From: Tetraselmis striata
Taxonomy: Eukaryota; Chlorophyta; Chlorodendrophyceae; Chlorodendrales; Chlorodendraceae
Assembly: GCA_006384855.1 (NCBI GenBank)
Contig: VCJN01000123.1
Location: forward strand, 1-64,000
Reading direction: 5' to 3'
Length of the DNA: 64,000 bases
Shown one piece after another: positions 3,149 to 58,719 of this stretch; the first letter of the stretch is position 1, and each line of letters begins with the position of its first letter. Position numbers and translations under genes: made by a program. Below the pieces are notes generated by a model, which worked only from the letters and a program-made list of their open reading frames with translations, was not told the origin of the DNA and did no database searches.

Positions 3149-3185
3149 GGCATGTATGACACGGGACATGCTCTACCGGTAGACC
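3149..3185 (+). repeat. Left terminal inverted repeat of the Harbinger element
   Basis: Exact inverted match to 8076-8112 over 37 bases. It begins GGC, as many Harbinger ends do. Confidence 0.9.
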
Positions 3186-3291
3186 ACTCGTAATTTATAC
3201 ACGCATAGCGCGCCACGTCGCAAAAAGTGCAATTTGGCCGTAAAGCGGTCACCCCTAGAGCGGTATACCGGTCTAGCATTTCGGCGGTAGG

Positions 3292-3317
3292 GTGGCATCG
3301 GTAGCTACCGATGCCAC
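3292..3317. repeat. Perfect 26-bp palindrome inside the Harbinger left end
   Basis: Each half reads GTGGCATCGGTAG, and the two halves are exact reverse complements with no spacer. It lies about 145 bases inside the left end and overlaps the first codons of the plus-strand frame that starts at 3311. It could be a transposase-binding site or a cruciform-forming site; that is inference. Confidence 0.85.
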
Positions 3318-4417
3318 TCCCCGCTCTACCGCTCTATTTTGAACGCGGCACCCTGTCGCCTGCGAATCCACCTTCATCGCGCTATCCCTCGCCCGCCCCA
3401 TCTTGTAGTCCCACCGAAACTTCGCGCGGGCGGTACATGGATTCCACGCCTCACGGCCATGGCTGCGCGCCCGGAATCACCCCGCAAGGCGCCACGGGCG
3501 ACCGGTCAAGCGGCCAGTCAAGCGTGTTCTCTGTCTCCATCCGGCCGATCTCGCCCCGTAGTCGGTTGAATCCTACCTATCCCCTTGGCACGTTCGCATC
3601 CGGAGGGCCACTGCCCGCTCGCCCGCAGACAATGCGCCTTGGCAATGGCGCCGCCAACTCGGCGTTTCGGGCGCCGTGGGCGCCGGGCGCCATGCCGTTG
3701 TCCCAGTGGCACATCTCGCCATCCGGTGCGCCCAGCGGGGCGCTGCCTCCTAGCGTGTTTCGACCGGAAGGGCATCGCCCCGCTGGCCTCGCTGACCCGT
3801 CCCCCTCTGGATCTCATGTCGCGCGCGGACAGCGCCCAACCGACTTGAGCCCAGCAGACCGAGCAGCAAGTGCGGTTGGTCCTGCGATGCTCGGCGCCCC
3901 GGAGGACCCGTCACATGCGGCAGAGCCGGAGCCCATGGAGCCGGGCGACTACTTCACGAGGATGAACCAAGAGTACACCGATGATGAGGATGACGCGGCC
4001 GCGAAGGCCTCTGAGCAAGCTGACAACAGCGGCGAGGCTCATCCGCCGGCGCCTGGGGCTGTCCGTGTTCGATGCTGCGTGCCGATGTGCCGCATGGTGC
4101 AGTCGCCGCTGTGGACCAACATTCCAGCGACGGAGGGTTGCTCGCAGCATCGTTGCAAAGTATGCCACGGCCACTTTTACCCGCCTTGCTCTTACCACTA
4201 CTACGGAGCCGAGGAGATGGACCACTGCGGCTGCGGCAGCACTAACACTGCCATCCTAGCTGGTGTTGGTGCTTCCCAAGCTAGTGGTGCTCCCCCGGCA
4301 CCACCCTCCACATGGGCATATACAGATCATGACATGGACAGCGATAACGGCTTCCTTGAAGAGAAGGTGCCCCCTTTCCCATGCTGCAAGTCGAGCATTG
4401 TTTTGCTTCGTAAATAA
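3311..4417 (+). CDS. Harbinger-borne Pro/Ser-rich protein with Cys-rich end
   Basis: An open frame of 368 codons inside the Harbinger element. The first ~200 residues are low-complexity, rich in Pro, Ser, Gly and Arg. An acidic patch follows (YTDDEDDAAA, about residue 220). A Cys/His cluster then occupies residues ~255-310 (CCVPMC, CSQHRCKVCHGHFYPPC, HCGCG) and may bind zinc. I do not recognise the family. It may be the first exon of the ORF1 protein continuing at about 4484, or a separate zinc-finger-like protein. The start is the first ATG, which overlaps the palindrome at 3292-3317. The neighbours are all element sequence, so the role is presumably DNA binding or transposition. Confidence 0.55.
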   Translation: MPLPALPLYFERGTLSPANPPSSRYPSPAPSCSPTETSRGRYMDSTPHGHGCAPGITPQGATGDRSSGQSSVFSVSIRPISPRSRLNPTYPLGTFASGGPLPARPQTMRLGNGAANSAFRAPWAPGAMPLSQWHISPSGAPSGALPPSVFRPEGHRPAGLADPSPSGSHVARGQRPTDLSPADRAASAVGPAMLGAPEDPSHAAEPEPMEPGDYFTRMNQEYTDDEDDAAAKASEQADNSGEAHPPAPGAVRVRCCVPMCRMVQSPLWTNIPATEGCSQHRCKVCHGHFYPPCSYHYYGAEEMDHCGCGSTNTAILAGVGASQASGAPPAPPSTWAYTDHDMDSDNGFLEEKVPPFPCCKSSIVLLRK

Positions 4418-4483
4418 TTACAACACATAATTATGGTTGTGCATAGTGTGCGAGAATAGCTTATACGCTATGCGCTGCATATG

Positions 4484-6131
4484 TAGGACGATCCGTCAAA
4501 GCACATGTGGTTTGATGACCTCATTGCAGAAGACAAGTGGCTGTGCCGTCAACATGACGTACCAATCCTATAGTAGTTTAGGGATGATCCGAAATTGGTG
4601 TATGCGTGGAGGTCTGCACATTCTTATGCCCCGGATCTGACATCGAAGAGTAAGCCACCACGTACGTACACTGACCAAGAGAGCGGTGCGTGGTTCGAGG
4701 CGAGGGATATGCGTGCCCAGTTGATGGAGAAGAAGAGGAACCTCAAGAAGCATGGCCAGTTGATCGTTGACCCAGATGGTAGGGACATGCGGCCAACGTC
4801 CAAAGACCAAGCTAATCATGTGCACGCTGTTGCACCTGCTTTTGCGGCGGCTGCTGGAAAGGTACGCCCCCCGCCCTCCCCCCCTCTATCTACCGCCGTC
4901 TCCCATGGGTCTTTGCTCCTCTCAATTATAAATGCACATGAATACCAATCACATGTTTGGTGTTGACCTATTACACAGGAGCTCAACAAGAGTGGTGCCT
5001 CATCTACGCTGGGCCAACACGAGATCGCTCGCATGGTACATGTGATGCACCATCCTGATGCATCACCTGCTATGCAGCTCATCATGCTCGGCAAGACCAG
5101 GGGGATGATTGACGACAAGCGAGGGTGCCTCAGCCCATGGGAGCTCATTGCCAGCATCTTCTGTGATCCAACCTTCATGTCGAACAATTACTTCATGGAT
5201 GACATCAAGTATGGCAACACCATCACCAAGAGCGTGAACCCTTCTGTGTGGACGCCGGGGCGCTCAGACGACTGCCTGAAAACCAACTTTGTTCGCACCC
5301 GTGGCGTTCTAACTAGGTGAGTTCCATCATTTATCAAATGCATGTGTATGTATGTACACACATATGTATGTAACAAATAACCATGATAACATGTTTTTGT
5401 ACTCGCTGACCCACTGCGAATTTGCATAAGTCATGCAGGTATGAGGCAAACTACACTAAAAGCGGAGGTGGGGACCCCTGCCTGTTACCCAACTTCCTGC
5501 ACTGTGGGCATGGCGGCAGGTGCGCGCCAATCGCATACCAATTACATGCATTCAAATTGCTGCATATGTTGCGCAGAAACATAGTTTTATAATGCGGACC
5601 TTTTGTTTCTCTCGCAAGCTGTGCTTTTGGCAATATGCTCACATCCATGGCCTTTGGGATATGGTGACCTGCATCATGCATGATGACTGCGCGATGGAGA
5701 TGGACTTCACCGGCGATGGGCCAGGCGCCAGCAAGACAATGCCTGACCCACGGCACACGATCAGGAGGGCTCCACCTAAGATTCAGCAGGCACCGTCCAG
5801 CAACGCAAGCATCTCATCAAACTTCTGGAGAGCTGTGACTGAGTCTCTGCAGAAGGAGAACATGCAGCCTCGCAGCGGGGCGGCGACGAATACCCTGTCC
5901 ACGCCTGAGAAGGAGCGCATCATGGCGAAAGCCAGCACTGAGAAGAAGAAGGGGATGCGCCACGATCAGAAGCTTCGGCACTCTGAGCAACTACATGAGG
6001 CGGAGAAAGGGATGAGGCGCAAGTGCGACCTCATTTCCGACATAATGCGTAGTGACGCCGCGCAACTGACAGAGGACAACAAGGCTTCTCTCCGTGAGCG
6101 GATCATGAGCATCATGATGCATGCCGACTAA
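4484..6131 (+). CDS. Harbinger ORF1-type accessory protein, several exons
   Basis: Coding blocks separated by probable introns: about 4484-4860 (SGAWFEARDMRAQL), 4981-5317 (HEIARMVHVMHHPDASPAMQ, LGKTRGMIDDKR, WELIASIFCDPTF), about 5440-5517 (YEANYTKSGGGDP) and about 5607-6131 (LCFWQYAHIHGLWDMV, then a charged helical tail). Harbinger elements normally carry a second, DNA-binding protein beside the transposase. The pattern of a WELIASIFCDPTF-like block, then YTKSGGGDP, then LCFWQYAHIHGLW is what I recall for ORF1 proteins of algal and animal Harbingers. Donors such as GTGAG at 5318 and acceptors ending CAG fit the exon edges. Two adjacent stops near 4594 imply either a small intron or decay. 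The gene converges on the transposase, with stops about 270 bases apart. Confidence 0.6.
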
Positions 6132-6401
6132 ACCCCCTCCGCCCCCGCCAGTTGCATAGCTCCCAATGCTGTCCCCAAACAATGTAAGCCACCGTTCTGC
6201 CGTTGGGAATGCTCATTATAACCCCTGCCCCCAATGCTTCCTGAAATGGTGCGCACTACTACTGGCATGGGCTCGCACATATTCTGCGCCCAATTGCGGT
6301 GTTGCGTATGATGCACACAACCAGCTATTACATATTCATGTATGCATGATATTCACAGCTTTTACATTTCATGATTTCAGTCCACAGCGAAGCACTCCTC
6401 A

Positions 6402-7530
6402 TTACATTCCTAGCTTACGCTTTGAGTGAGCCGGGCGACGCCATCCACCGTCACAGATCTGCTTCGCAACCTCAATTCTGAGCATGCTAGGACAGCCCTT
6501 CGTCTTCAAGTCCCAAGGGGGATACGCCACGCGATGCTGTTGCACCGGCAACATCTCATCTCCATTAAGGACATCACGGTTCAGGGGCTTAGGTGCATGC
6601 ACCCCAGACTCATCAACGCAGATATTATGGAGCTTCATGCACACTGAAACTGCAACCACAGTGATGTGAGGGAGGGTGGTGGTCAGTGGCCTGCGTAGAA
6701 TGCCAAACCGTTTAACCGGCTCTCCGAAGGCGCACTCGACGATGATTCGGCATCTGCTCTGGTAGTAGTTGAAGCTGTCCTTCCGGATGTCCATAACGCC
6801 ATGAGAAGAGCACGGCACCAACATATACTCTGACGCCACATACGCCTCATCTCCGGCACCCCACGGCAGTGGATGTTTACGCATGTGTGTAGCCAGACTA
6901 GTTGCTTTGACTCCCAAGCCAGGGAGTCGTGTGTGCCTGCCTCCGGTGCATGCCATGCTCCATCACAAGAACTTCCGCTCCGCCGTTGCAAGCGTCTGCA
7001 AGTTTATCGCGAAGAAGCCCTTCATGCACATGCAAGCCATGGGGTTGGGAGTGTCGCGGCGGCTCGGATGCCCGATCTTCACTTTCATTCCCGTCGATTG
7101 CATCGATGCAATAACCGCTTACCACCCGCTTGCTGCGGAGATACATGTTCTGGGACAAGATTTGCAGGTGTGGCTCAGAGGAGATGTCAAAGTCGACAGT
7201 GAGAATCTTGTCGAGCGCGTAGATCGTCTGTCACAGCACGCATTTGTAAAATGTCGAGCTGTCCATCATGTACAAGTCCTCGATGTCTAGAAAGTTGCTG
7301 CCAGCAAGCCACCTTAGAGTCGCAGCTAGCTTGAGCTCGACAGTAATCGCAGATCCTGACGAAAGAATTGCGAAGAAGGAGTTCGATGTGAGGGAGGGCC
7401 TGAGCTTCACGACTAGGTCAGCGAATGTCGCCTTCGTGATCATGAACCTGCGGCGGAAACCGCGCTCGGTCAGGTTGTCGCAATAGGACGCTTAGTCCAT
7501 GCGCGTTGGCCGACGGGTGTTTGCACGCTT
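6402..7530 (-). pseudogene. PIF/Harbinger transposase (DDE_Tnp_4), damaged
   Basis: Read on the minus strand. The N-terminal part has the helical region typical of the family (LAATLRWLAGSNFLDIEDLY and SSTFYKCVL, 7231-7443). Then come CIDAIDG and NPMACMCMKGFFAINLQTLA (about 7110-6980), a GGRH block that normally reads GGRHDSLAW with the second catalytic Asp, and YYQSRCRIIVECAFG with RFGILRRPL and MKLHNICVD, which hold the catalytic Glu (about 6760-6600). The protein normally cuts and rejoins element ends in the nucleus. Here an in-frame TGA replaces the first Trp of the usual FLWW block near 6957, and a small insertion near 6925 shifts the frame at the second Asp. Further stops lie upstream, around 7493. 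It is therefore a pseudogene, although the family assignment is firm. Confidence 0.85.
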
Positions 7531-8075
7531 GTTCTTGATCTTCCTGCCTACGTTGCCGTGGCCAGTGAAACGAGCTGAGAGCTCGTCCACAATGGCGATG
7601 CAGCTGTCGCAGGCGCCGTTGGCAGCCTCTGTGGCCATATGGTTGCGGCGGCGACCAGGAACAGCTTTCCGGCCCGATCGTAGTCACTACGGCAGTGCAC
7701 GAGGGCAGTCGCAATGCAACCGATGAAGGCCATCGGCAGACCGCCGTACAGTGGTAGCACGGTCATTTTGCGAGTTCGGGAAGGTCGAAGGTGGTGCTTG
7801 GTTGTCGGAGGGAGTGCACGGTGGCGGGCGATGCGGCGTTTTGAAAACTCGTCAACGCTTTACGGACATGTTTCAAAATATGCGCTCAACGGTAGCGGTA
7901 GGGCGGTAGCGGCTAGTTTGACCGGTAAATAGAGTTGTTCCCGAGTCGTACCGTTCTGAAGGCTCAAAAAGGAACTGAAAAAGTGAAAAGACTGCATGGA
8001 AAGACAGATTGGCTGGTCGCCATTTGCTTTTTGCGACGTGGCGCGCTGTGCGTGTAGAAATTAAGGCGGTAGAGC

Positions 8076-8112
8076 GGTCTACCGGTAGAGCATGTCCCGT
8101 GTCATACATGCC
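8076..8112 (-). repeat. Right terminal inverted repeat of the Harbinger element
   Basis: Reverse complement of 3149-3185 without mismatch. TTA follows directly at 8113-8115. Confidence 0.9.
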
Positions 8113-26422: not shown

Positions 26423-26452
26423 GGCCATTCCGACAAAATGACCTGGCTAAGG
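26423..26452 (+). repeat. Left terminal inverted repeat of the 8.2-kb transposon
   Basis: GGCCATTCCGACAAAATGAC followed by a diverging CTGGCTAAGGTC. It pairs with 34570-34599. Confidence 0.88.
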
Positions 26453-26747
26453 TCAGTATCACCCGTGGAAACGGAGGGGGGGGGGGTTGTTTTGTAAATT
26501 GCGAAAGTTTTGTAATTAGTACTTTAAGCAGTTAGCTGCCTTCCAGCGCCCCCTGTGCACCTCCCGTTTGTCCTTATCCTGCGCCGCCGCCGCCGGTGCT
26601 GCCACCGTGCTCGCATGTATGCAAACCTAGCCACCTTCCAGCTACCTCCTACCGACTGACGACCGCTCCTCATCATCACACTTCCAGCGCCCGTCAGCAA
26701 CCTATGCTGGCCGCCAACTCCCACATACTAGCGCATGCGCACCATGC

Positions 26748-29700
26748 ATGGCGTCGTCGTCACAACTTGTTCCTATGCACAGGCTCCGCGTTTCCGTTAA
26801 GTGGGACGATAAAGTCCTTGGCGACACCTACAAGCTGCTCCTCAAGAGCCAAGAATGGGTGGAGAACAACGACTGCATGCAGTTGCTGAAGGCTGCAGTC
26901 GCAGCTTCCCCGGACGGGGCAACTCTGATGCCCACGTTGGAGGACGCCGGCAACATAGAGGAGATTTCGCTCAAGGTGCTGCTGCAACAGGGTTCGGTGC
27001 ACGTCTCGCCTGGCGATAGCCGGTCGAAGAAGAAACGGCTGGGGACTGGCACGATGGAGTGCACAGATGTGCTGCTATACCTGGTCGAGTACTGCATATC
27101 TCTCCCAACTGACACGTTCATCTTCAAGGTTCTCATCAAAGAGCCAGAGCAGCCTCGCAGTGGAAACCTTGTCAACGCGTTCGATAGGCTTTACGCTGCG
27201 CAGATTCCCGACGTGTTGTGCTTGCCCCCTCAGCTCAGCTTCAAGAAAATGAACGCTGAGCACATGCTATACAACGATTTGCTTGACTATTTTGAGAAGT
27301 TTCAGGTTGGGTGGACAGCCGCCGAGGTCGCCACCCACGGTGTCCCGTTCATGAAATTCTTCACGGCCGGAATATTCCAGCTCACCGGCGCTATGTGGAG
27401 GGCCTTCCAGGACAGCGAACGCAGGCAAGTGGCCATGCGCCCTACCCGTCGCCCGCCCTCTCGTATACGGTTTATAAGGGCTGAAGCCGACTACCCGTAG
27501 CTGTAGCACCCTGACGCATCGACTTCTCCGATTGCTAGGTTCCCCCCGCCGCACGCCGAACTCGAGCAGTTCTTTCGCAGAAAGGAGAAAGGGAACAAGG
27601 GTGAGCAGATCGAGACACGCGTGCGTTCCGCCGTGCTGTCGTTCGAGGATGCGTTCGCTATCAGAGGCAAGTGGGCCCTCCGAGGGAAGTGATGACGATG
27701 TACCCCCGCTTGTGGGCTGTGTGGCAATCAACCGAGGGCTACCGCAACCGAATGTTCCTGCAAGTTGATAGGCATGCAGCTGTGCACAACCTTCCTACCC
27801 CTGATGTCGAAACCCCCATGAGCATTAACGTCTTCGAGGCGCGCTCGCACAAGCCACCACCCCGTCTCGCTCGCCTAGACGCGTTGCTCGAGCAGGCCGA
27901 CTTGTACAGCCCGATAAACGTGACCGAGTTCCTCCGCGACATGCGGAAGTACTCCTTGCATGACTTCCTCCAGGCTATGAGAAAGGGGCTGTCCAATCCG
28001 TTCATGTGTTGGACATGGCGGTATGGGGGAAGCCGACCTGGGCTCGCGCTGCACCATATCTGGAAGGTACCCCCTCGCATGCCCGCCGAGGGTAGGGCGG
28101 ACATGGTGAACAAGTCGAACCAGCTGAGCAACATACCGAGGGATACAGTCGAGGTGCAGTATAGCCGAGCAGCGAAGCAAGCGTACTACGCGAACGTGCT
28201 GAAGCCGTCGTTCATGTCTAGCAAGGCAGCAGCGAGAGCTGTGTTCGAGTACCTCACCGGAGGGAAGCTGCCCTTCGATGGCAGTGATGAGGCGGGTAGC
28301 CCGGCAAGCTACGCCCTATTTGTTGACGACCCTGACATAATCTTTGACCTGGGAAAGCTGAATGGTGAGCCTGGTTCCACCGAGTTCGATGTTTTCTGGA
28401 CCAAGTTTGCTGCCCAGCTTGAGGAGCATAAGCGTGTGGACGATCGAAGGCACGGTAAGTTGTTGTTGCCCTGCTTGGCCTATCATGCTTTATACATCAT
28501 GTTGACCTTGGCACCATGCAGACATTGACATGCTTGCTGTGCCTTTATTGTAGGTCAGAACAAGCTACCATTCAATATTTCCATCAGGGCCATGGTGAAC
28601 AAGGTTGTGAAGGCCCTGGAGGAAGAGCACGGCGACTTGGAGGAGGCCGGCATCAGCGTCCCGTCCCATGCATGGGTGGAGCTGCAGTTCTGCCCAAATT
28701 TAAGAATATCTTGGCCACAAGGGCCTTGGCATTCACATGCCAGTTTTATATGTTCATGTTCTGCCTAGCATGTTGTGCAATGCTGCATGTGAGATGTTGT
28801 ATTAAACTGTGGTATATGTATGTTTGCATGGCTGCAGGGAGGCTTGACCTGCAGCACGCAGTCCAACAGAGGACGCTCAGGTCTAAGAGCATAAACGCGC
28901 ACTACTGTGCAGCTCTATTCAAGTACATGAAAGTGTATGGGGTGTTGCTGGCCACTATGTTGGATGAGCAGCCACAGCAGGCTGGACCTGTTGTTGCTGC
29001 TTTCATGGACGACAAGGCCACGGTAAGCCGTGCAGTTGATTCTGCACATGTATTGATCAGCCTTGTAGATATTTAGATGTGTTGGTAATAATTATACATG
29101 TGTGCATACGTAGGGCAACATCGGAGAGCCCAACCTGGCCATTGCAGTCACTTCCAGAGGCAAGGCGAGCATCGTCCCAACATGGGCAGAGCATGCGCAT
29201 GTTGATGGAGACCACGACTTTCACAAGGCGTCGCTCGCCCCCAGCGTGACATTCGTGCGCGAGGTCCCCCCCGCCGCTGAAACGACGGACTTCGCAAGAA
29301 TCATGGAGCAGCTGCCAAGCTACTACCGCGGTGCAATGCTGCCTCTGCCTCCATGCCCTCCCCATTCCTGCCATCATGCACACACATGTCTTTTGCGTCA
29401 TGCTGAGACATGTGGAGGGCTGCCGCATGTCAGGTGCATCTGACAATTAAGGACGCTGTCCTGGAGCCATTGTCTCCACTGCGGCACATGGCGGAGCTGC
29501 TTCCAGTCCTTGGGACACCGGCCAAACTGATCCCCATCTTGATGATAAATACTGACGGGGGCCCCGACCACAGCTGCAACCACCTGTCGGTGCAGTTGGG
29601 GCTGCTGGCCCTTGTCCTTGAAGGGGGGCATGGGCACCATGCTGGTGGCCAGGACGGCCCCGCAGCACAGCTGGGCTAGCCCTGCAGAGCGCGTCATGGG

Positions 29701-32492
29701 CACGATCAATCTCGCCTTGCAGTGCGTTGCGTTGGCGCGGATGCAGATGGGTGAGGAGTTTGAGGCTGTCATGGCCCACTGCCACGGGATGGCGCGGGTA
29801 TCCGAGCTGCTGCCGCTGCTTCCGACAAGAGAGCGGTAAGTCCGTGCATGTAGCCTTGTGCATGATTGCTCGTGTTGTAGTGACCGCTGTAAAATGGGGC
29901 CATTAATTTGGTCTTAAGCTTTCAGTTTTGCTCGCTTAAACGACATATTCTGCGGAGGAATGTATTTGGTATAATGTATCCGCCAGATCGGTTGAAAGCA
30001 ATATTAATGTTAATATTGAAAGACGTCGTCGTCACTTTACAGGCCGACAAGGCAGCAGAAGAGGCATCAGCCGCAGCTGCTCCTAAGGCTTCCACGCCGC
30101 CGCCGTCCACTCCTGCACCCGCCACAGCCGACATTGATGTCGCTGCTCCCCGAACCCAAACCCCTTCGCATGCCTACGGCACGGACACCGGCCATGTCGC
30201 GGACGGCACTGACGCCATCGACTCGTCGCAGGTTAAGTCGCCTGACGCTGTTTCCCCTGACCAAACCTCTCCGCCTCGGCACGTTATCCCACCCGCCGCT
30301 GCTTCATCTATCCCAGCAACCCCTCCCCCTCCCGACGTGGCTGTTGCTTACGCTACCCCGCCACGTCCCACTTGGCTGGCCGACTACACTGGCACACCAT
30401 CACCGTCGACTAGCCAGCCGCCGCCGTCGTCGCATGCAAGGGCCGACTCGATCAGCTCATCAGCCAAGAGTGTCAACAAGGACGACGACGACATCGTCAT
30501 GGAGGACGAGGTGATGCATGTCGACGACAACACCGCCGAGGTGGTGATCATCGACGACGATGCTGAGGCCGCCCCGCTGGCAGGCGACGCCCCGGCAGCG
30601 CCCGCTGTGCTTGACGGTGCTGCTGACAATGTCCGACCACTTGATATGCCCCTAGATGTCCGGCAACTTCAGAGCCCTGTGGGGCAAGAGCGTTAAACCA
30701 GCCCTTGATGCAGTGAAACATCAGTGCCAGCACCTAGTGTGGGATAGCAATCCGCTGGTGTTGCATGAGCCCGCTAAGCATGAGGCAATGAACGAGCTGC
30801 TGCAGGTGCTGCGACGCATCGAGCCCACCTTGCAGTCTCTGTCCGTTATACGGCTGCAGTCCAAGAACTAGATAGCCTACCGTGATGAAGGTCCTCAAGA
30901 ACCACACCAACAACAGTCAGTTCTTCCTGCAGTTCTTCAAGCACGTTGATGAGTGCGACTGCCGGGCTTGCGAGCTCGACCTGTGGAAACCACGACGCCT
31001 GCCGGCGCCCATATTTGAGGCTGTCCACACCTCGCTCCGGTTGCCCCTGCCCATCCCCCAGCCTCAGCCCGAGACTGGCGCGCTCGGCACGAAAGAGTTC
31101 CATTACATGACACTGGAGGAGGCCTTCCAGCACGGAGTGTTCACCGATGAGCACCAGCCGTCCAAGATCGCAGAACGTGCTGCGGGCCGTGGCCGTGACC
31201 GTGGCCATGGGCTAGCCGGCGCCGCGCCCGCAGTTGGCCGTGGCCGTGGCCGCCCACCGGTTGCACCAACAGCGGAGGCTGTACCAGCAGCGCAGCCCAA
31301 GGCAGTGCATGGCAACGCCCTCAGCAGCAGGGTGCTGGTCCAGCCCCACATGAAGGGGATGTCTATCGCTCACCCCTCCAAGTTACGCGGTGTCGTGGTA
31401 TGCCATTCCTTACTTTGTCTTGCTTGGTTGTCTTGCATTCCTTACGCCATGTGGTTGTTATGATTTCATGTAAAGAGTTCCATTACATGACACTGGAGGA
31501 GGCCTTCCAGCACGGAGTGTTCACCGATGAGCACCAGCCGTCCAAGATCGCAGAACGTGCTGCGGGCCGTGGCCGTGACCGTGGCCATGGGCTAGCCGGC
31601 GCCGCGCCCGCAGTTGGCCGTGGCCGTGGCCGCCCACCGGTTGCACCAACAGCGGAGGCTGTACCAGCAGCGCAGCCCAAGGCAGTGCATGGCAATGCCC
31701 TCAGCAGCAGGGTGCTGGTCCAGCCCCACATGAAGGGGATGTCTATCGCTCACCCCTCCAAGTTACGCGGTGTCGTGGTATGTCAGGAGGCGGACTGTGG
31801 CAAGCCTCGCTGCATATTCTCGCAGCCGCTGTCCAAGATGGTGCCTCCCGCTGCGGAGAACGTGACTCCGGAGGACCCTAAGTCGGCGGCCAGCAAGGAG
31901 TACCAGAAGAGAGCCCTGCATGCATTGCATTATTGCTTCCGCCCCCTCCCCTTCCCTTATCTGTGGCATGCAGCCCTTGCCAGAGGATCACCCCTTTCGC
32001 GACACCTTCGTTTGTGATGATGCCTTGACATGCGAGTCCAGGGTGGAGTGGGAGTACTACACCCACTTGAAGAAGTCGGTGGCGTGGTTCAACCCGGATT
32101 TGTGCGTGCACTGTGTTGGACAACTTGGAGCCGGATGGCGCCACAAAGACCTGCATGACGTCTATCATGTCGTGCTGCCCATCTGCGAGGTACAGCCTGC
32201 CCTTTCCGTTGCTACTGTCTGCAACCGTATTGTGTGTCACTGACAAATGTTTTCTTACATCGCACAGGCATGCGAGGCAGATGGGCTGAAGCACAACGTA
32301 CCCGGGTTCAAGCCCAACGGCGAGCAAAAGCTCAAGAACACGGACAAGCACCTGGCCGGGCAAGCACTTGCGCGCATGCGAGGCGGGCACCCGCAACAGG
32401 GAGCGACAGCCCCGACGGCGTCAGCGTCAGCGTCGGCGGCATCAGCCGCTACCACGGCTGCGGCTGCGGAGTCGGCCACTGGAGGCGATTAG
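26748..32492 (+). CDS. Large multi-exon transposase-like protein, putative D-D-E, Cys-rich C-terminus
   Basis: Coding blocks: 26748 to ~27465 (VSVKWDDKVLGDTYKLL), ~27530-28455 (YPRLWAVWQSTEGYRN), 28555 to ~28690, 28839-29022 (ending FMDDKAT), 29114 to ~29331 (GEPNLAIAVTSRGKASIV, HDFHKASLAPSVTF), ~29431-29837 (TIKDAVLEPLSPLRH, INTDGGPDH, SPAERVMGTINLALQ), ~30042-30690 (Pro/Ala-rich acidic linker), ~30890-31399 (FFKHVDECDCRAC), 31785 to ~31910 (CGKPRCIFS), ~31974-32189 (CVHCVG, VYHVVLPICE) and 32269-32492. The exon 28839-29022 joins 29114 in phase 0. I read the D of DDK, the D of TDGGPDH and the E of SPAER as a candidate RNase H-fold triad. From memory the same phrases occur in long unannotated proteins of cnidarians and sponges. 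A G6 run near 29622 shifts the frame, and another frame change near 30870 suggests decay or an unmodelled intron. An exon is duplicated at 31474-31779. Confidence 0.7.
31094..31779 (+). repeat. Recent tandem duplication of a coding exon (period 380 bp)
   Basis: 31094-31399 and 31474-31779 are almost identical over ~306 bases (one C/T difference noticed, at the codon before CCTCAGC). They are separated by ~74 bases of intron-like sequence. The unit encodes EFHYMTLEEAFQHGVFTDEH, then a GRGRDRGHG-type Arg/Gly stretch. The near-identity implies a very recent duplication, or an assembly duplication. Confidence 0.9.
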
Positions 32493-32859
32493 TAATATTG
32501 TATCGTTTGCCAATGCCAGCCGTAGACATTGTAGCACATGTGAAGGGCATGGACATGGGTGGGGACCATGGACACTGCTGGTGCAAACCAGTGTGCACAA
32601 ATTTCACATAAGGCTGCCATGTGGCACACTTAAACATTTTCATGAATCAACATCGCCATCATTGTCCGGCTACTGCATGGCACACACAGATGCATTTTGA
32701 TCATATTGTAGTTTCTCAATCTCCGCGCCACCGCCGCGCCGCGCAACCGGTTTCACTTGCTAATGCGGTTTGTGGGAAGAACGGCCCGGTTCTACTAGCG
32801 ACCTACCATACATGTATAAAGAGTAGTAGGCATGTCTTGATGTCCTGACGCCGGGCTGC

Positions 32860-34030
32860 TGCTGCTCCGAAACCAATTTCAGCACTGAAATTGCACAGCA
32901 ACGCCCAAACGCTGCCCAATGTGGCTATTCCAGCTCAAATTATGATGGCATAGTGGACCATATATAGCCAGCACATGGTATGATTTGCAGCTCGAAACGT
33001 GGCGATCGCTATCCGAGTATATAGTTGCTGCCGCTCTGTAAGGTACACCGCAGTGTTTACAGCACAACTATATATATGGCATGTATACCACCAACCCAAA
33101 CGTGCGCGGAATCTGTTCTCGCGCTGGGGATCGGAAGACCATATATATTAACTACATATCAGCACGTACAAACGGTTTTTGGGGGAGGGGGGGGGGAAGC
33201 TAGGGCCCCCACACACGGAATGTTCGCCGGGAACAACGCAGCAACAAATATTGCTCCGAAACCAGTGCTGAAACCGCGCGTCGCCGCAACGCCCGGACGC
33301 TGCTCAATATGGTGGCTATTCCAGCTCAAATCATGGTGGCATGGTGGACTATATATAGCCAGCACATGGTATGATTTGCAGCTCGAAACGTGGCGATTGC
33401 TATCCGATTATGTATTTGCGGCCGCTCCGTAGCGTACACGCACCGGAGTGTCTAGCGCAATATGGCGGTGCATGTATACCACCAACCCAAACGTGCGCAG
33501 AATTTGTTCTCGCGCTGGGGATCGGTAGACTTTGTATATGTATGACTACATATCAGGACATACAAACAGTTGGGGGGGGGGGGGGGGGGAAGCAAGGGCC
33601 CCCACACACGGAATGCTCCCCGGAACAACGAGTTCCAAATAATGCTCCGAAACCAGTGCTGAAACCGTCCCCGCAATGCCCGGACGATGCCCAATATGGT
33701 GGCTATTCCAGCTCAAATCATGATGGCATAGTGGACTATATATAGTCAGCACACGGTATGATTTGCAGCTCGAAACGTGGCGATTGCTATCCGATTATGT
33801 ATTTGCGGCCGCTCCGTACACCGCAGTGTTTACCACACAATACAGCAGTGCATGTATACCACCAACCCAAAAGTGCGCAGAATCTGTTCTCGCGCTGAAG
33901 ATCGCTAGACTATATATATGACTATATACCAGCACATATAAACAGTTTGAGGAGGAAGCTAGGGCCCCCACACACGGAATGCTCGCCGTGAACAACGCAG
34001 CCCCAAGCAATGCTCCGAAACCAGTGTTAA
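32860..34030 (+). repeat. Subterminal tandem repeats, ~390-bp unit, three copies
   Basis: The anchor ATTCCAGCTCAAAT recurs at 32927, 33318 and 33705 (spacings 391 and 387). Each unit continues with GCCAGCACATGGTATGATTT-like sequence and a purine-rich tract. A G-run precedes the last units (for example G18 at 33572-33589). The block is non-coding and lies between the gene and the right end. Confidence 0.85.
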
Positions 34031-34569
34031 AACTGTCGCCGCAGAGCACCGCACGGCCGCTGCGTCGCCGGGACATCAGCCAGTGGTTATGCTGTCGGCA
34101 TGTGCAAAGGGCTGGCGGGGCAACATCTCGGCGGCAGCAAGCGGCGATGCGTGTTGCACGCTGAATTTGCTGCGAAACCAAGAATTCCATATATGGAATG
34201 ATGGAACCGCCACCGCAGCGCACCGCACGACCGCTCATGCGTTGCCGGGACGACTCTCAACAGAGCTAGTATCCAAAACCATCAAGCACTGCAACAGCCG
34301 CACCAAGCCCGTTGCACCGCCAGATGCCCTCTGCTGGGTTGTGGGGGCACTACTCAACGCTTGTTCTCTCAACTATTTCCCACCCCCTCCGCATACTATT
34401 GGCTTACCATAGGCCGTTGGGGTGGGAGAGAGGCATGGTGCATCGCGTTGTTGTTGGAAGTGCATGCCACATGTCAAATTGGATTACATAGTGTGCCGCA
34501 GTACATAAAGTACTAGAAAATCCTTACAAATAAACCGGAGGGGGGGACTCAAAATGGAGGGGCGTGTGA

Positions 34570-34599
34570 CCTAAACCAGGTCATTTTGTCGGAATGGCC
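34570..34599 (-). repeat. Right terminal inverted repeat of the 8.2-kb transposon
   Basis: Reverse complement of the left end with only scattered mismatches. TAA follows at 34600-34602. Confidence 0.88.
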
Positions 34600-34696
34600 T
34601 AAGGAGTACTGCTTTTAGCAGTAGGTGGATTTGTTACTGCCCTTTTTGTAATTCACACCTGTACTGATGGCCCGCCTCTGTTGCCCAGCAATCGCT

Positions 34697-55848: not shown

Positions 55849-55851
55849 TTA

Positions 55852-58480
55852 GGCCATTCCGACAAAGTGACCTGGTTTAGGTCAGTATTATCCGTGGAAA
55901 CGGACGGGGGGGAGGGGTTGTTTTGTAAGTTGCGAAAGTTTTGTAATAAGAACTTTAAGCAGTATACATCCTTCCGGCGCCCCCTGTGCTCCTCCCGTCT
56001 ATCCTTAATATCATGCGCCGGCGCCGCTGCTGCCACCGTGCTCGCCCGCATGTAAACCTAGCTACCTTCCAGCTACCTGTTACCGATTGACGACCGCTCC
56101 TCATCACACTTCCCACGCCCGCCACCAACCTATGCTGGCCGCCAACTCTCACATACTAGCGCCTGCGCGCCACCATGGCGTCGTCGTCAGGACCAGTTCC
56201 TATGCACAGGCTCCACGCCCTTGCCTGAGGATCCCCCCTTTTGCGACACCGTTGTTTGCGATGATGCCTTATAATAATTAGACATGCGAGTCCAGGGTGG
56301 AGTGGGAGTACTACACCGCCAACCAGAAGAAGTATGTCGTGGTTCCACCCGGACATGTGCGTGCACTGTGATGGACAACTTGCTTGGAGCCGGACGGCGC
56401 CACAAAAACCTGCAGGACGTCTATCACGTCGTGCTGCCCATCCGCGAGGTAGGTACACCCTGCCCTTTTCGTTCCTGCTGGCTGCAACTGTATTGTGTGT
56501 CGCGCGCTGACGAATGTTTTCTTACATCGCGCAGGCATGAGAGCTCAAGGCAGATGGGCTGAAGCACATCGTACGCAGGATCAAGCCCAACGGCCAGAAA
56601 AAGATCAAGAACATGAACAAGCAGCTGGCCAAGCAAGCACTGGGAGCGCATGCGAGGCGGGCACCCGCAACAGGGTGCGACAGCCCCGACGGCGTCAGCG
56701 TCAGCGTCGGCGGTATCAGCCGCCACCGCGGCTGCGGCTGCGGAGTCGGCCACTGGAGGCGCTTAGTACTATTGTATCGTTTCCCAATGCCAGCCGTAGA
56801 CATTGTAGCACATATGTAAAGGGCAGGGACAGGGGTGGGGACCATGCACACTGCTGGTGCAAACCATGGTGCTCAACTTTCACTCAAGGCTGCCGTGTGC
56901 TACACTTGTACCATTTTCATGAACATCACCATCATTGTCTGGCTACTGCATTGCACACAAAGATGCATGTTTATCATATTGTGGTCTCTCAATCTCCGCG
57001 CCACCACCACCGCGCTACCGGATTCACTTGCTAATGCGGTTTGTGGAAAGAACGGCCCGGATTTATTAGCGACCTACTATACTTGTAAGAGTAATAGGCA
57101 TGTCTTGATGTCTTGCCGCCGGGCTGCTGCTGCTCGGAAACCAATTATAGCACTGAAATCGCACGGCAACGCCCGGACGCTGCCCAATATGATGGCTATT
57201 CCAGCTCAAATCATGGTGGCATAGTGGACTACATATAGCCAGCACATGCTATGATTTGCAGCTCGAAACGTGGCGAGTGCTATCCGAGTATATATTTGCT
57301 GCCGCTCCGTAGCGTACACCGCAGTGTACACCGCACAATATGGCAGTGCATGCATACCACCAACCCAAAAGTAAGCAGAATTCGTTCTCGCGTTGGGGAT
57401 CGCTACACCATATATATGACTACATATCAGCACATACAAACAGCTGGGGGGGGGGGGGGGGCACACACGGAATGCTCGCCGGGAACAACGCAGCTCCGAA
57501 TATGCTCCGAGACCGGTGCTGAAACCGTCGCCGCAACGCCCGGATGTTGCTCAATAATATGGTGGGTATTCCAGCTTGAATCATGGTGGCATAGTGGACT
57601 ATATATAGCCAGCACATGGTATGAATTGCAGCTCGAAATGTGGCGATTGCTATCCGAGCATATATTTGCTGCCGCTCCGTACACCGTATTGTTTACCGCA
57701 CAAAATGGCAGTGCATGTATACCACCAACCCTAAAGTGCGCAGATATGTTGTCGCTCGCGCTGGGGATCGCTACACTACATATATGACTACATATCAGGA
57801 CATACAAACAGTTGGGGGGGGGGGGGGGGGGGGGCTAGGGCCCCACACCGGAATGCTCGCCGGGAACAACGCAGCTCCAAATAAGGCTCCGAAACCAGTG
57901 CTGAAACCGTCGCCGCAGAGCACCGCACGGCCGCGGCGTCGCCGGGACATCACCCATTGGGTATGCTGTCGGCATGTGCAAAGGGCTGGCGGGGCAACAG
58001 CTCGGCGGCAGCAAGCGGCGATCGATGCGTGTTGCACGCTGAATTTGCTGCGAAATCAAGAATTCACTACATGGAATGATGGACCCCCACCGCAGCGCAC
58101 CGCACGACCGCTCATGCGTTGCCGGGACGACTCTCAACATAGCTAGTATCCAAAACCAGCACTACAACAGCCGCACCAAGCCCGCAGCACCGCCAGGGGC
58201 CCTTTACTGGGTGGCCGGCGGGGCACTACGTACTCAACGCCTGTTCTCTCAAATTTTTCCCACCCCCTCCGCATGTTAGTGGCTTACAATAGGCAGCTTG
58301 GATAAGCGGGGAGAAGCATGGTGCATCGGTTGTTGTTACAAGTGCATGCCACATGTCAAAATGAATTACATAGTGTGCCGCAGTACTTAAAGTACTAGAA
58401 AATCCTTACAAACAAACCGGAGGGGGGGCTCTAAATGGAGGGGGGTGTGACCTAAACTAGGTCATTTTGTCGGAATGACC
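55852..58480 (+). mobile_element. Internally deleted copy of the unclassified transposon (copy 2, 2.6 kb)
   Basis: The same ends as the 26.4-kb element (GGCCATTCCGACAAAGTGAC at the left) are flanked by TTA on both sides (55849-55851 and 58481-58483). The gene start at 56175 is followed after ~40 bases by sequence equal to the C-terminal exon at 31974. A jump of about 5.2 kb near 56215 has removed the catalytic exons. The C-terminal exons (56218-56765) carry stops. Right-hand tandem repeats have two units (anchors at 57198 and 57568). The missing ~5.2 kb plus one repeat unit accounts for the length difference from copy 1. Confidence 0.88.
57130..57900 (+). repeat. Subterminal tandem repeats in copy 2, two units
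   Basis: Anchors lie at 57198 and 57568 (370 bases apart), each followed by a G run near the next unit edge (about 57446-57462 and 57814-57834). They are homologous to the three units at 32860-34030. Confidence 0.82.
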
Positions 58481-58719
58481 TTACCGCAAGCAGATGTGCC
58501 GCGCGCACGCGCCGCGTACGCGCACGCCCACGATATCTACGAGTTACTTACGGTCGGTACTTAATGCTACGACCACCGCTGCACCTACCGGATCCGTCAG
58601 CTGGTACTACGGCCCGTAAGGGTACGAGCACTAGCGGAGGACTGCGCGTCATCACATCTCCTTTTACAGCTACTCCCCATGGAGTTGGTACTGGTGAGGT
58701 TGCCTCTCCTATATATAGT

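Follow-up and report, generated by a model that had tools for sequence, protein, structure and literature searches.

The element at positions 26423-34599 of the window (the whole 64,000-nucleotide stretch of Tetraselmis striata contig VCJN01000123.1 that was analyzed) is best read as a cut-and-paste transposon with its own DDE transposase, the core of which most likely belongs to a deep eukaryotic branch related to bacterial ISAzo13, near Zator and not Harbinger. A probability of roughly 0.7 was given to this reading. The original prediction had described a transposon whose protein fits no named superfamily.

The predicted inverted ends and TAA duplication were both confirmed. The terminal repeats were perfect over 24 bp and 94% identical over 34 bp (chance matches: mean 0.00, 100 shuffles), identical TAA triplets flanked the element, and the one unoccupied copy of the site that was fetched (L132) held a single TAA. 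The second copy in the window (55852-58480) was flanked by TTA (55849-55851 and 58481-58483), and a single TTA was found in both unoccupied sites fetched for it (L131 and L133). Genome-wide, the GGCCATTCCGACAAAATGACCTGG end was present 96 times on the forward and 93 times on the reverse strand with up to 3 mismatches (control, 0/0), and three families with this protein had 42-115 ends per strand. The suggested search for ends paired with TWA duplications returned identical 3-bp flanks in 28 of 35 end pairs read, with TWA in 24 of these 28. Terminal inverted repeats with a target duplication of fixed length, a general feature of cut-and-paste DDE elements, were present. The same type of protein occurred in four families that differ in their ends; the elements measured 5.7-8.2 kb and had one long gene.

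Table 1. Coordinates of features of the 26423-34599 element and of its short copy (window positions)
Feature	Position	Strand	Basis or remark
Left target site duplication, TAA	26420..26422	.	Same as 34600-34602
Left terminal inverted repeat, GGCCATTCCGACAAAATGACCTGG	26423..26446	+	Matches right end
First coding exon, transposase N-terminal region	26748..27426	+	Open frame; intron borders by eye, 3' end approximate
Pre-catalytic region, at least 2 exons (FDVFWTKF...DDRRHG; VPSHAWVELQFCPN)	27605..28690	+	Likeness to blocks of relatives
Catalytic exon 1, DDK motif	28839..29025	+	First catalytic Asp candidates 29008-29013; end of strand 1 in models
Catalytic exon 2 (GEP..., DHDFH..., YYRG)	29114..29332	+	
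Catalytic exon 3, DGGPDH	29431..29640	+	Second catalytic Asp 29554-29556
Continuation in other frame (frameshift), ERVMG	29628..29838	+	Catalytic Glu 29687-29689
C-terminal Cys-rich part	30876..32492	+	CDCRAC 30954-30971, CQEADCGKPRC 31781-31813, CVHC 32103-32114
Subterminal tandem repeats, ~390 bp x 3	32888..34033	+	Similar sequence also in short copy
Right terminal inverted repeat	34576..34599	-	Matches left end
Right target site duplication, TAA	34600..34602	.	Same as left flank
Second copy, 2.6-kb internal-deletion derivative without catalytic exons	55852..58480	+	Same family as 26423-34599

The catalytic motifs followed in the order FMDDKAT, INTDGGPDH, SPAERVMGTINLALQ (acidic codons in Table 1). 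Their presence and order were as predicted. They do not lie in one open frame: FMDDKAT and INTDGGPDH are split by introns, a frameshift lies between INTDGGPDH and SPAERVMGTINLALQ, and the copy is therefore damaged. An N-terminus resembling the first exon was found in the L041 element, and the pre-catalytic region resembled two blocks seen in relatives, FDVFF...DERRH and IPSxxxVRLQFxPRNP. The Cys-rich C-terminal part was found with all three expected motifs (CDCRAC, CGKPRC and CVHC), similar motifs recurred in the L039 and L041 elements and in animal proteins, and an exact 300-bp duplication (31092-31391 = 31472-31771) lies inside it.

As the motif block recurs in animal proteins, including those of Alosa alosa (E = 1.7e-68) and Haliotis rubra (E = 3.6e-67), it is not a product of chance. 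Named relatives came from fish, molluscs and a sea cucumber, all hosts named were eukaryotic, and the animal members were annotated as 'hypothetical' or 'uncharacterized protein'. Cnidarians and sponges, where similar phrases had been expected, were not among these named hosts. The description of the family as widespread and unprofiled held, with hosts spanning an alga and these animals and a precomputed Pfam domain in 0/133 relatives listed. No Pfam match exceeded its cut-off (zf-CW in P0122, 22.1 bits against a cut-off of 27.5; other rows weaker still), NCBIfam returned 0 families for 5 proteins, and a sequence search of the PDB gave weak rows alone, judged unrelated (best E = 0.072). A PHROGs tail fibre match of P0121 (3.5e-6) was dismissed as a low-complexity stretch, and two further PHROGs rows were weak (0.035 and 0.42). 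Viral origin and close prokaryotic relatives were rejected on searches with a few short patterns, in which 0 relatives were confirmed from 55 IMG/VR matches and none from 25 prokaryotic matches; the BFVD structure search gave no match at E <= 0.001. No description of the family was found in the titles, abstract starts and passages searched in the open-licence literature.

Conservation of the acidic residues was high: the second Asp was kept in 72/74 aligned rows and the Glu in 67/68 rows with a letter at that column, and the spacing between them was 43 in 93 of 95 relatives. Like the ends, duplications, unoccupied sites and copy number, the conserved triad was observed directly. In the predicted structures the three acids sit at canonical positions of an RNase H fold, the first Asp following strand 1, the second following strand 4 and the Glu lying on the next helix, as had been anticipated, and by this prediction the protein would be a DDE transposase. 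Tc1/mariner proteins (Mos1, Sleeping Beauty, Metnase) were the first structural neighbors of the predicted core in Foldseek, and of the full-length model in VIA; no Harbinger, Zator or ISAzo13 entries were listed in the structure searches, which excludes none of these.

The transposase would comprise ~900-1,250 residues, with an N-terminal part, a helical part, an RNase H core (D-about 105-D-43-E) and a Cys-rich C-terminus that is probably zinc-binding. The enzyme would bind the inverted ends and use a two-metal D-D-E site to cut both strands, the element would be inserted at a TWA target whose strands are cut 3 bp apart, and repair of this stagger would leave the TAA or TTA duplications. Shortened copies bearing these ends would be mobilized in trans.

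The true Harbinger noted ~20 kb away was verified by a PF13359 match (6624-7028, minus strand, 36.2 bits) in an element bounded by inverted repeats at 3149 and 8112, with ends starting GGC and GTA/TTA flanks. The genome holds at least 150 Harbinger-domain matches, so the protein could be a passenger in an element moved by same-genome Harbinger transposases, which also favor TWA and GG(C) ends. This is very improbable: the same protein accompanies four families with different ends and occurs in animals, its D-D-E triad is conserved within a predicted transposase-like RNase H fold, and no Harbinger domain was present in the 9 open frames of the element that were scanned. Membership of the protein itself in Harbinger was rejected. 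PF13359 (DDE_Tnp_4), which had been called absent, was found in none of 22 scans of proteins or frames, and hhalign against 18 same-genome Harbinger domains gave probabilities of 0.1-0.2% and shuffle-level scores (10.8-16.0); a control comparison reached 100% but is not independent, as both of its sets contain the L041 protein. Two halves of the Harbinger set also matched each other at 100%. The Harbinger-like ends and target of the family are most likely convergent.

The same HMM-HMM comparison, null for Harbinger as expected, gave a weak, in-register match of the catalytic domain to ISAzo13 (30.5-33.2 in three of four set-ups), above nearly every control, with a low probability and 1 of 300 shuffles scoring higher. 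Given this match, and since ISAzo13 also makes TWA duplications, the statement that the protein fits no superfamily was too strong. An ISAzo13 ancestry of the catalytic domain may be inferred, and kinship to ISAzo13 would place the family near Zator. General DDE constraints might instead account for the profile match, the family being a wholly separate superfamily with no special ISAzo13 tie; the low probabilities, the lack of sequence-profile significance and the higher-scoring shuffle fit this, but ISAzo13 against Harbinger remained at shuffle level (14.8-14.9), as did the family against Harbinger, and the shared TWA duplications and near-identical D2-E spacing also count against it. We regard it as unlikely.

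Zator was reportedly first described by Bao et al. in 2009. The family could be a divergent Zator, a superfamily already described and perhaps held in Repbase under that name. Parts of two sources give Zator as ISAzo13-related with 3-bp duplications (PMC10045372, PMC5718144), the latter present here, and a passage of a third places it in the IS630-Tc1-mariner group (PMC7386202), which agrees with the Mos1-like fold matches and the ISAzo13 profile match. Against this, the ISAzo13/TP36 domain PF07592 (DDE_Tnp_ISAZ013) gave no hmmscan match and was carried by 0/133 relatives listed, and, as a weaker point, the best 120 of 5,052 matches in an ISAzo13-domain search of long proteins all had PF07592 and none belonged to this family. 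A divergent Zator is thus judged improbable, to about the same degree as a separate superfamily. The preferred reading is still that of an unprofiled eukaryotic branch, most likely deep and close to ISAzo13 and Zator. Tentatively, and at slightly less than even odds, this branch may rank as a superfamily, with a ~1,000-residue transposase shared by green algae and animals of several phyla, an ISAzo13-like ancestor, and TWA targeting and GG ends kept.

Being outside the curated libraries searched, the transposase family is likely overlooked by usual annotation, and the similarity in ends and target can cause its short derivatives to be labelled Harbinger by mistake. If the superfamily-level branch is real, it may include many MITEs that were filed as Harbinger solely for their TWA and GG(C) ends. 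The ISAzo13 link offers a testable origin for the family, and the conserved triad points to residues worth testing.

Compared with PIF/Harbinger (PHIS group), defined by a 5'-TWA-3' duplication (PMC4482050), the family likewise makes TWA duplications (24/35 end pairs), has ends that begin with GGC, like the Harbinger of the window, and has short derivatives with the same ends (PMC4482050), but differs in its catalytic motifs, null profile comparison, lack of DDE_Tnp_4 and single long gene, the elements being 5.7-8.2 kb in size. The Myb/SANT gene that PIF/Harbinger carries as a second gene was looked for in 9 of the 43 listed frames, and none was seen there. Tc1/mariner resembles the family in the predicted fold of the core; it makes 2-bp TA duplications (PMC10045372, in part), whereas the family makes 3-bp duplications with one TAA or TTA in unoccupied sites, lacks a DDE_3 match and has a much longer protein. 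The duplications of IS3EU and IS481EU (6 bp, or about 4, 15 or 25 bp, in the same part of PMC10045372) also differ from 3 bp. ISAzo13 is bacterial and ~400 residues long, whereas the family, eukaryotic in all named hosts, lacks a PF07592 match, has a protein 2-3 times longer and adds an N-terminal region, a Cys-rich C-terminus and introns. Both share the motif order H.D...AxFxY, D-K, HDF, DGG, PG.S..N..E, a D2-E spacing of 42 (ISAzo13) or 43 (family) and TWA duplications, which were seen in the ISAzo13 copies read, with G/GG ends in two Methanosarcina families. Zator, as described in those parts of PMC10045372 and PMC5718144, has 3-bp duplications like the family and would share its link to ISAzo13.

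The DNA transposon under study was read, with a probability of about 0.9, as an element carrying its own predicted DDE transposase. Genome searches covered the 224-Mb eukaryotic assembly of 2,903 contigs to which the window belongs. The inverted ends and TAA duplication of the original prediction were both seen, and joined flanks without the element returned 44 rows, 41 of which crossed the junction at 86-91% identity. The one unoccupied site fetched (L132) held a single TAA at the junction, with a 2-base insertion three bases beyond. A second copy of the family, new relative to the original prediction, shares the ends apart from 1 and 2 mismatches and is without the catalytic exons; its joined flanks matched 40 listed places at 88-91% identity, and the two sites fetched (L131 and L133) each held a single TTA. 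Both insertions lie inside high-copy repeats, with these 41 and 40 listed places matching across the junction.

Coordinates, ends and flanks of features in the window and at two related loci
Feature	Position	Strand	Ends or detail	Flanks
Transposon under study	26423-34599		Inverted repeat perfect over 24 bp, 34 bp at 94%	TAA / TAA
Second copy	55852-58480		2.6 kb	TTA
Harbinger element	3149-8112		Inverted ends about 41 bp, starting GGCATGTATGAC	GTA / TTA (one base off TTA duplication)
Harbinger PF13359 match	6624-7028	minus
Repeat shared by two loci	L041:7547-9045		88-93% identical to the L042 copy; L041 element about 190 bp away
Repeat shared by two loci	L042:889-2491		Adjoins the L042 element, of a different family from L041

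The window gene is intron-split and damaged: the DGGPDH exon (second Asp of the candidate triad) and the ERVMG stretch (Glu) are out of frame with each other, and the gene contains an exact duplication of 300 bp. At L039, a related locus, a 739-codon frame is open from upstream of DGGPDH to the C-terminus. Conserved blocks were DDK, GEP, DHD, (K/N)D, RHA, DGGxD and ERxMS..N..LQ. Conservation was counted over 74 aligned rows, using only rows with a letter at the position: the first Asp of DDK was present in 58/61 and the second in 59/61, the DGG Asp in 72/74 and the ER Glu in 67/68. The last two acids had 43 residues between them in 93 of 95 proteins. The C-terminal Cys pairs of the window gene were also present in the L039 and L041 elements, and animal proteins had altered versions of them. 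In one relative (P0122), a weak CW-type zinc finger match below cut-off (residues 956-976, E 1.6e-4) coincided with the conserved C..C.K.R motif of this part.

A profile search returned 177 proteins at E <= 1 from 3,957 candidates, the best 120 running from a near-copy of L039 at E 1e-82 down to 8e-40; a precomputed Pfam domain was found in none of these 120, nor in any of 13 long relatives, which include two Mya arenaria proteins (1,209 and 1,019 residues). Named sources were Alosa alosa, Haliotis rubra, Dreissena polymorpha, Holothuria leucospilota, M. arenaria and T. striata. The T. striata gene model TSEL_007830 (P0121) matched an element of the assembly at 100% identity with 79% of the query covered, which makes that species the probable source of the assembly. 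FastTree analysis of 56 cores joined all five sequences from T. striata in a single clade (support 0.996).

Counted exon by exon, the catalytic protein had 109 genome matches (E <= 0.001, 97% to 32% identity), and the divergent loci proved to be further families with distinct ends, all starting GGC. The 24-mer end of the window family (<=3 mismatches) occurred 96 times forward and 93 reverse, GGCCTGGAAGATTTTATCCG of the L039/L040/L050 family 115/114 times (<=2 mismatches) and GGCCAGTGAGATTTAATTGT of the L041 family 45/42 times (<=3 mismatches), with reversed-pattern controls of 0/0 throughout; the L042 element ends in GGCGTCCACTTT / GGCGTGCTGTAT. Pairs were neighbouring opposite-strand ends among listed places, loci with a single recognisable end being excluded, and both flanks were read for 35. 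Identical 3-bp flanks were found in 28, of which 24 were TWA (TAA or TTA). By family, identical flanks were seen in 7/10 pairs of the window family (6 TTA, 1 TAA), 9/10 of the L041 family (7 TAA, 2 TTA) and 7/10 of the L039 family (4 TTA, 2 TAA, 1 CTG); counted besides these were L041 itself (TAA), L039 (TAT), L040 (TAA), L050 (TAG) and L042 (TAG). Mutation, recombination or wrong pairing may account for the 7 unlike pairs. Across 5.7 kb, L039 and L040 were 99.2% identical, which indicates that this family moved recently. Many L041-type pairs were spaced only about 0.75, 1.5 or 2 kb, and for many of the L039 type the spacing was about 1.95 kb, as expected for non-autonomous derivatives.

Elsewhere in the assembly, the strongest Tc1/IS630-type (DDE_3) matches clustered on contigs C2385, C2605 and C2441 (8, 6 and 5 listed matches), a clustering that the scattered families do not show; the three contigs may come from a bacterium or a virus. 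On C1257, C211 and C1788, DDE_3 matches recurred every ~2,680 bp, as expected if a whole element were repeated in tandem.

From ends and target, Harbinger was the obvious candidate. PF13359 (DDE_Tnp_4) was absent by Pfam from all 22 proteins or frames scanned, as had been claimed, and hhalign against 18 Harbinger domains of the same genome gave probabilities of 0.1-0.2%; Harbinger membership was rejected on both results. The algal core compared with the full-length relatives gave an hhalign probability of 100%, a control that is not independent because both sets include the L041 protein; independent support for kinship of the core came from two animal proteins (P0009 and P0013), 37-41% identical over 98-99% of its length.

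ISAzo13, described in passages of PMC10045372 and PMC5718144 as a bacterial relative of Zator, was chosen on motifs. The query consensus was recognised by Pfam as PF07592; of 565 bacterial and archaeal stretches confirmed for it, the 80 best were taken, and 31 of these aligned. Against them in hhalign, 44 relatives scored 33.2 (E 0.0033, probability 9.8%, 168 columns) and 12 full-length relatives 31.7, but the four algal cores by themselves reached only 17.7. A separate run gave the family 30.5 (61 columns). Its shuffled-column nulls averaged 15.0 (sd 2.4, max 23.1, n 150) and 16.1 (sd 3.3, max 31.9, n 150), and its reversed controls scored 21.5 and 22.2; against Harbinger, the family scored 10.8 and ISAzo13 14.8. 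Single sequences against profiles gave no significance in either direction. Given these scores, controls and single-sequence comparisons, kinship with ISAzo13 is suggestive, not proven. The view that the protein fits no nameable superfamily stood as regards PF13359 and Harbinger, but is too strong as stated, given the ISAzo13 match; the family is rather likely a deep branch near ISAzo13/Zator (Zator being compared by description only) and not an isolated superfamily.

Target duplications were read at both ends of three copies from each of two ISAzo13 families in one Methanosarcina MAG. The first, with GGAA at the start of both ends, had duplications of TAA/TAA, TTA/TTA and TTA/TTA. The second (GTATTCG at one end, GGGCTCG at the other) had TAA on both sides in 3/3, which could be element sequence since all three copies agree. 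At least one ISAzo13 family therefore duplicates TWA beside terminal GG, so that this combination is not a Harbinger signature. The 168-column alignment placed the H.D..A.F.Y, D-K, HDF, DGG and PG.S..N..E motifs of ISAzo13 and the present family in register, and the TWA duplication beside terminal GG, shared with at least one ISAzo13 family, agrees with that profile comparison.
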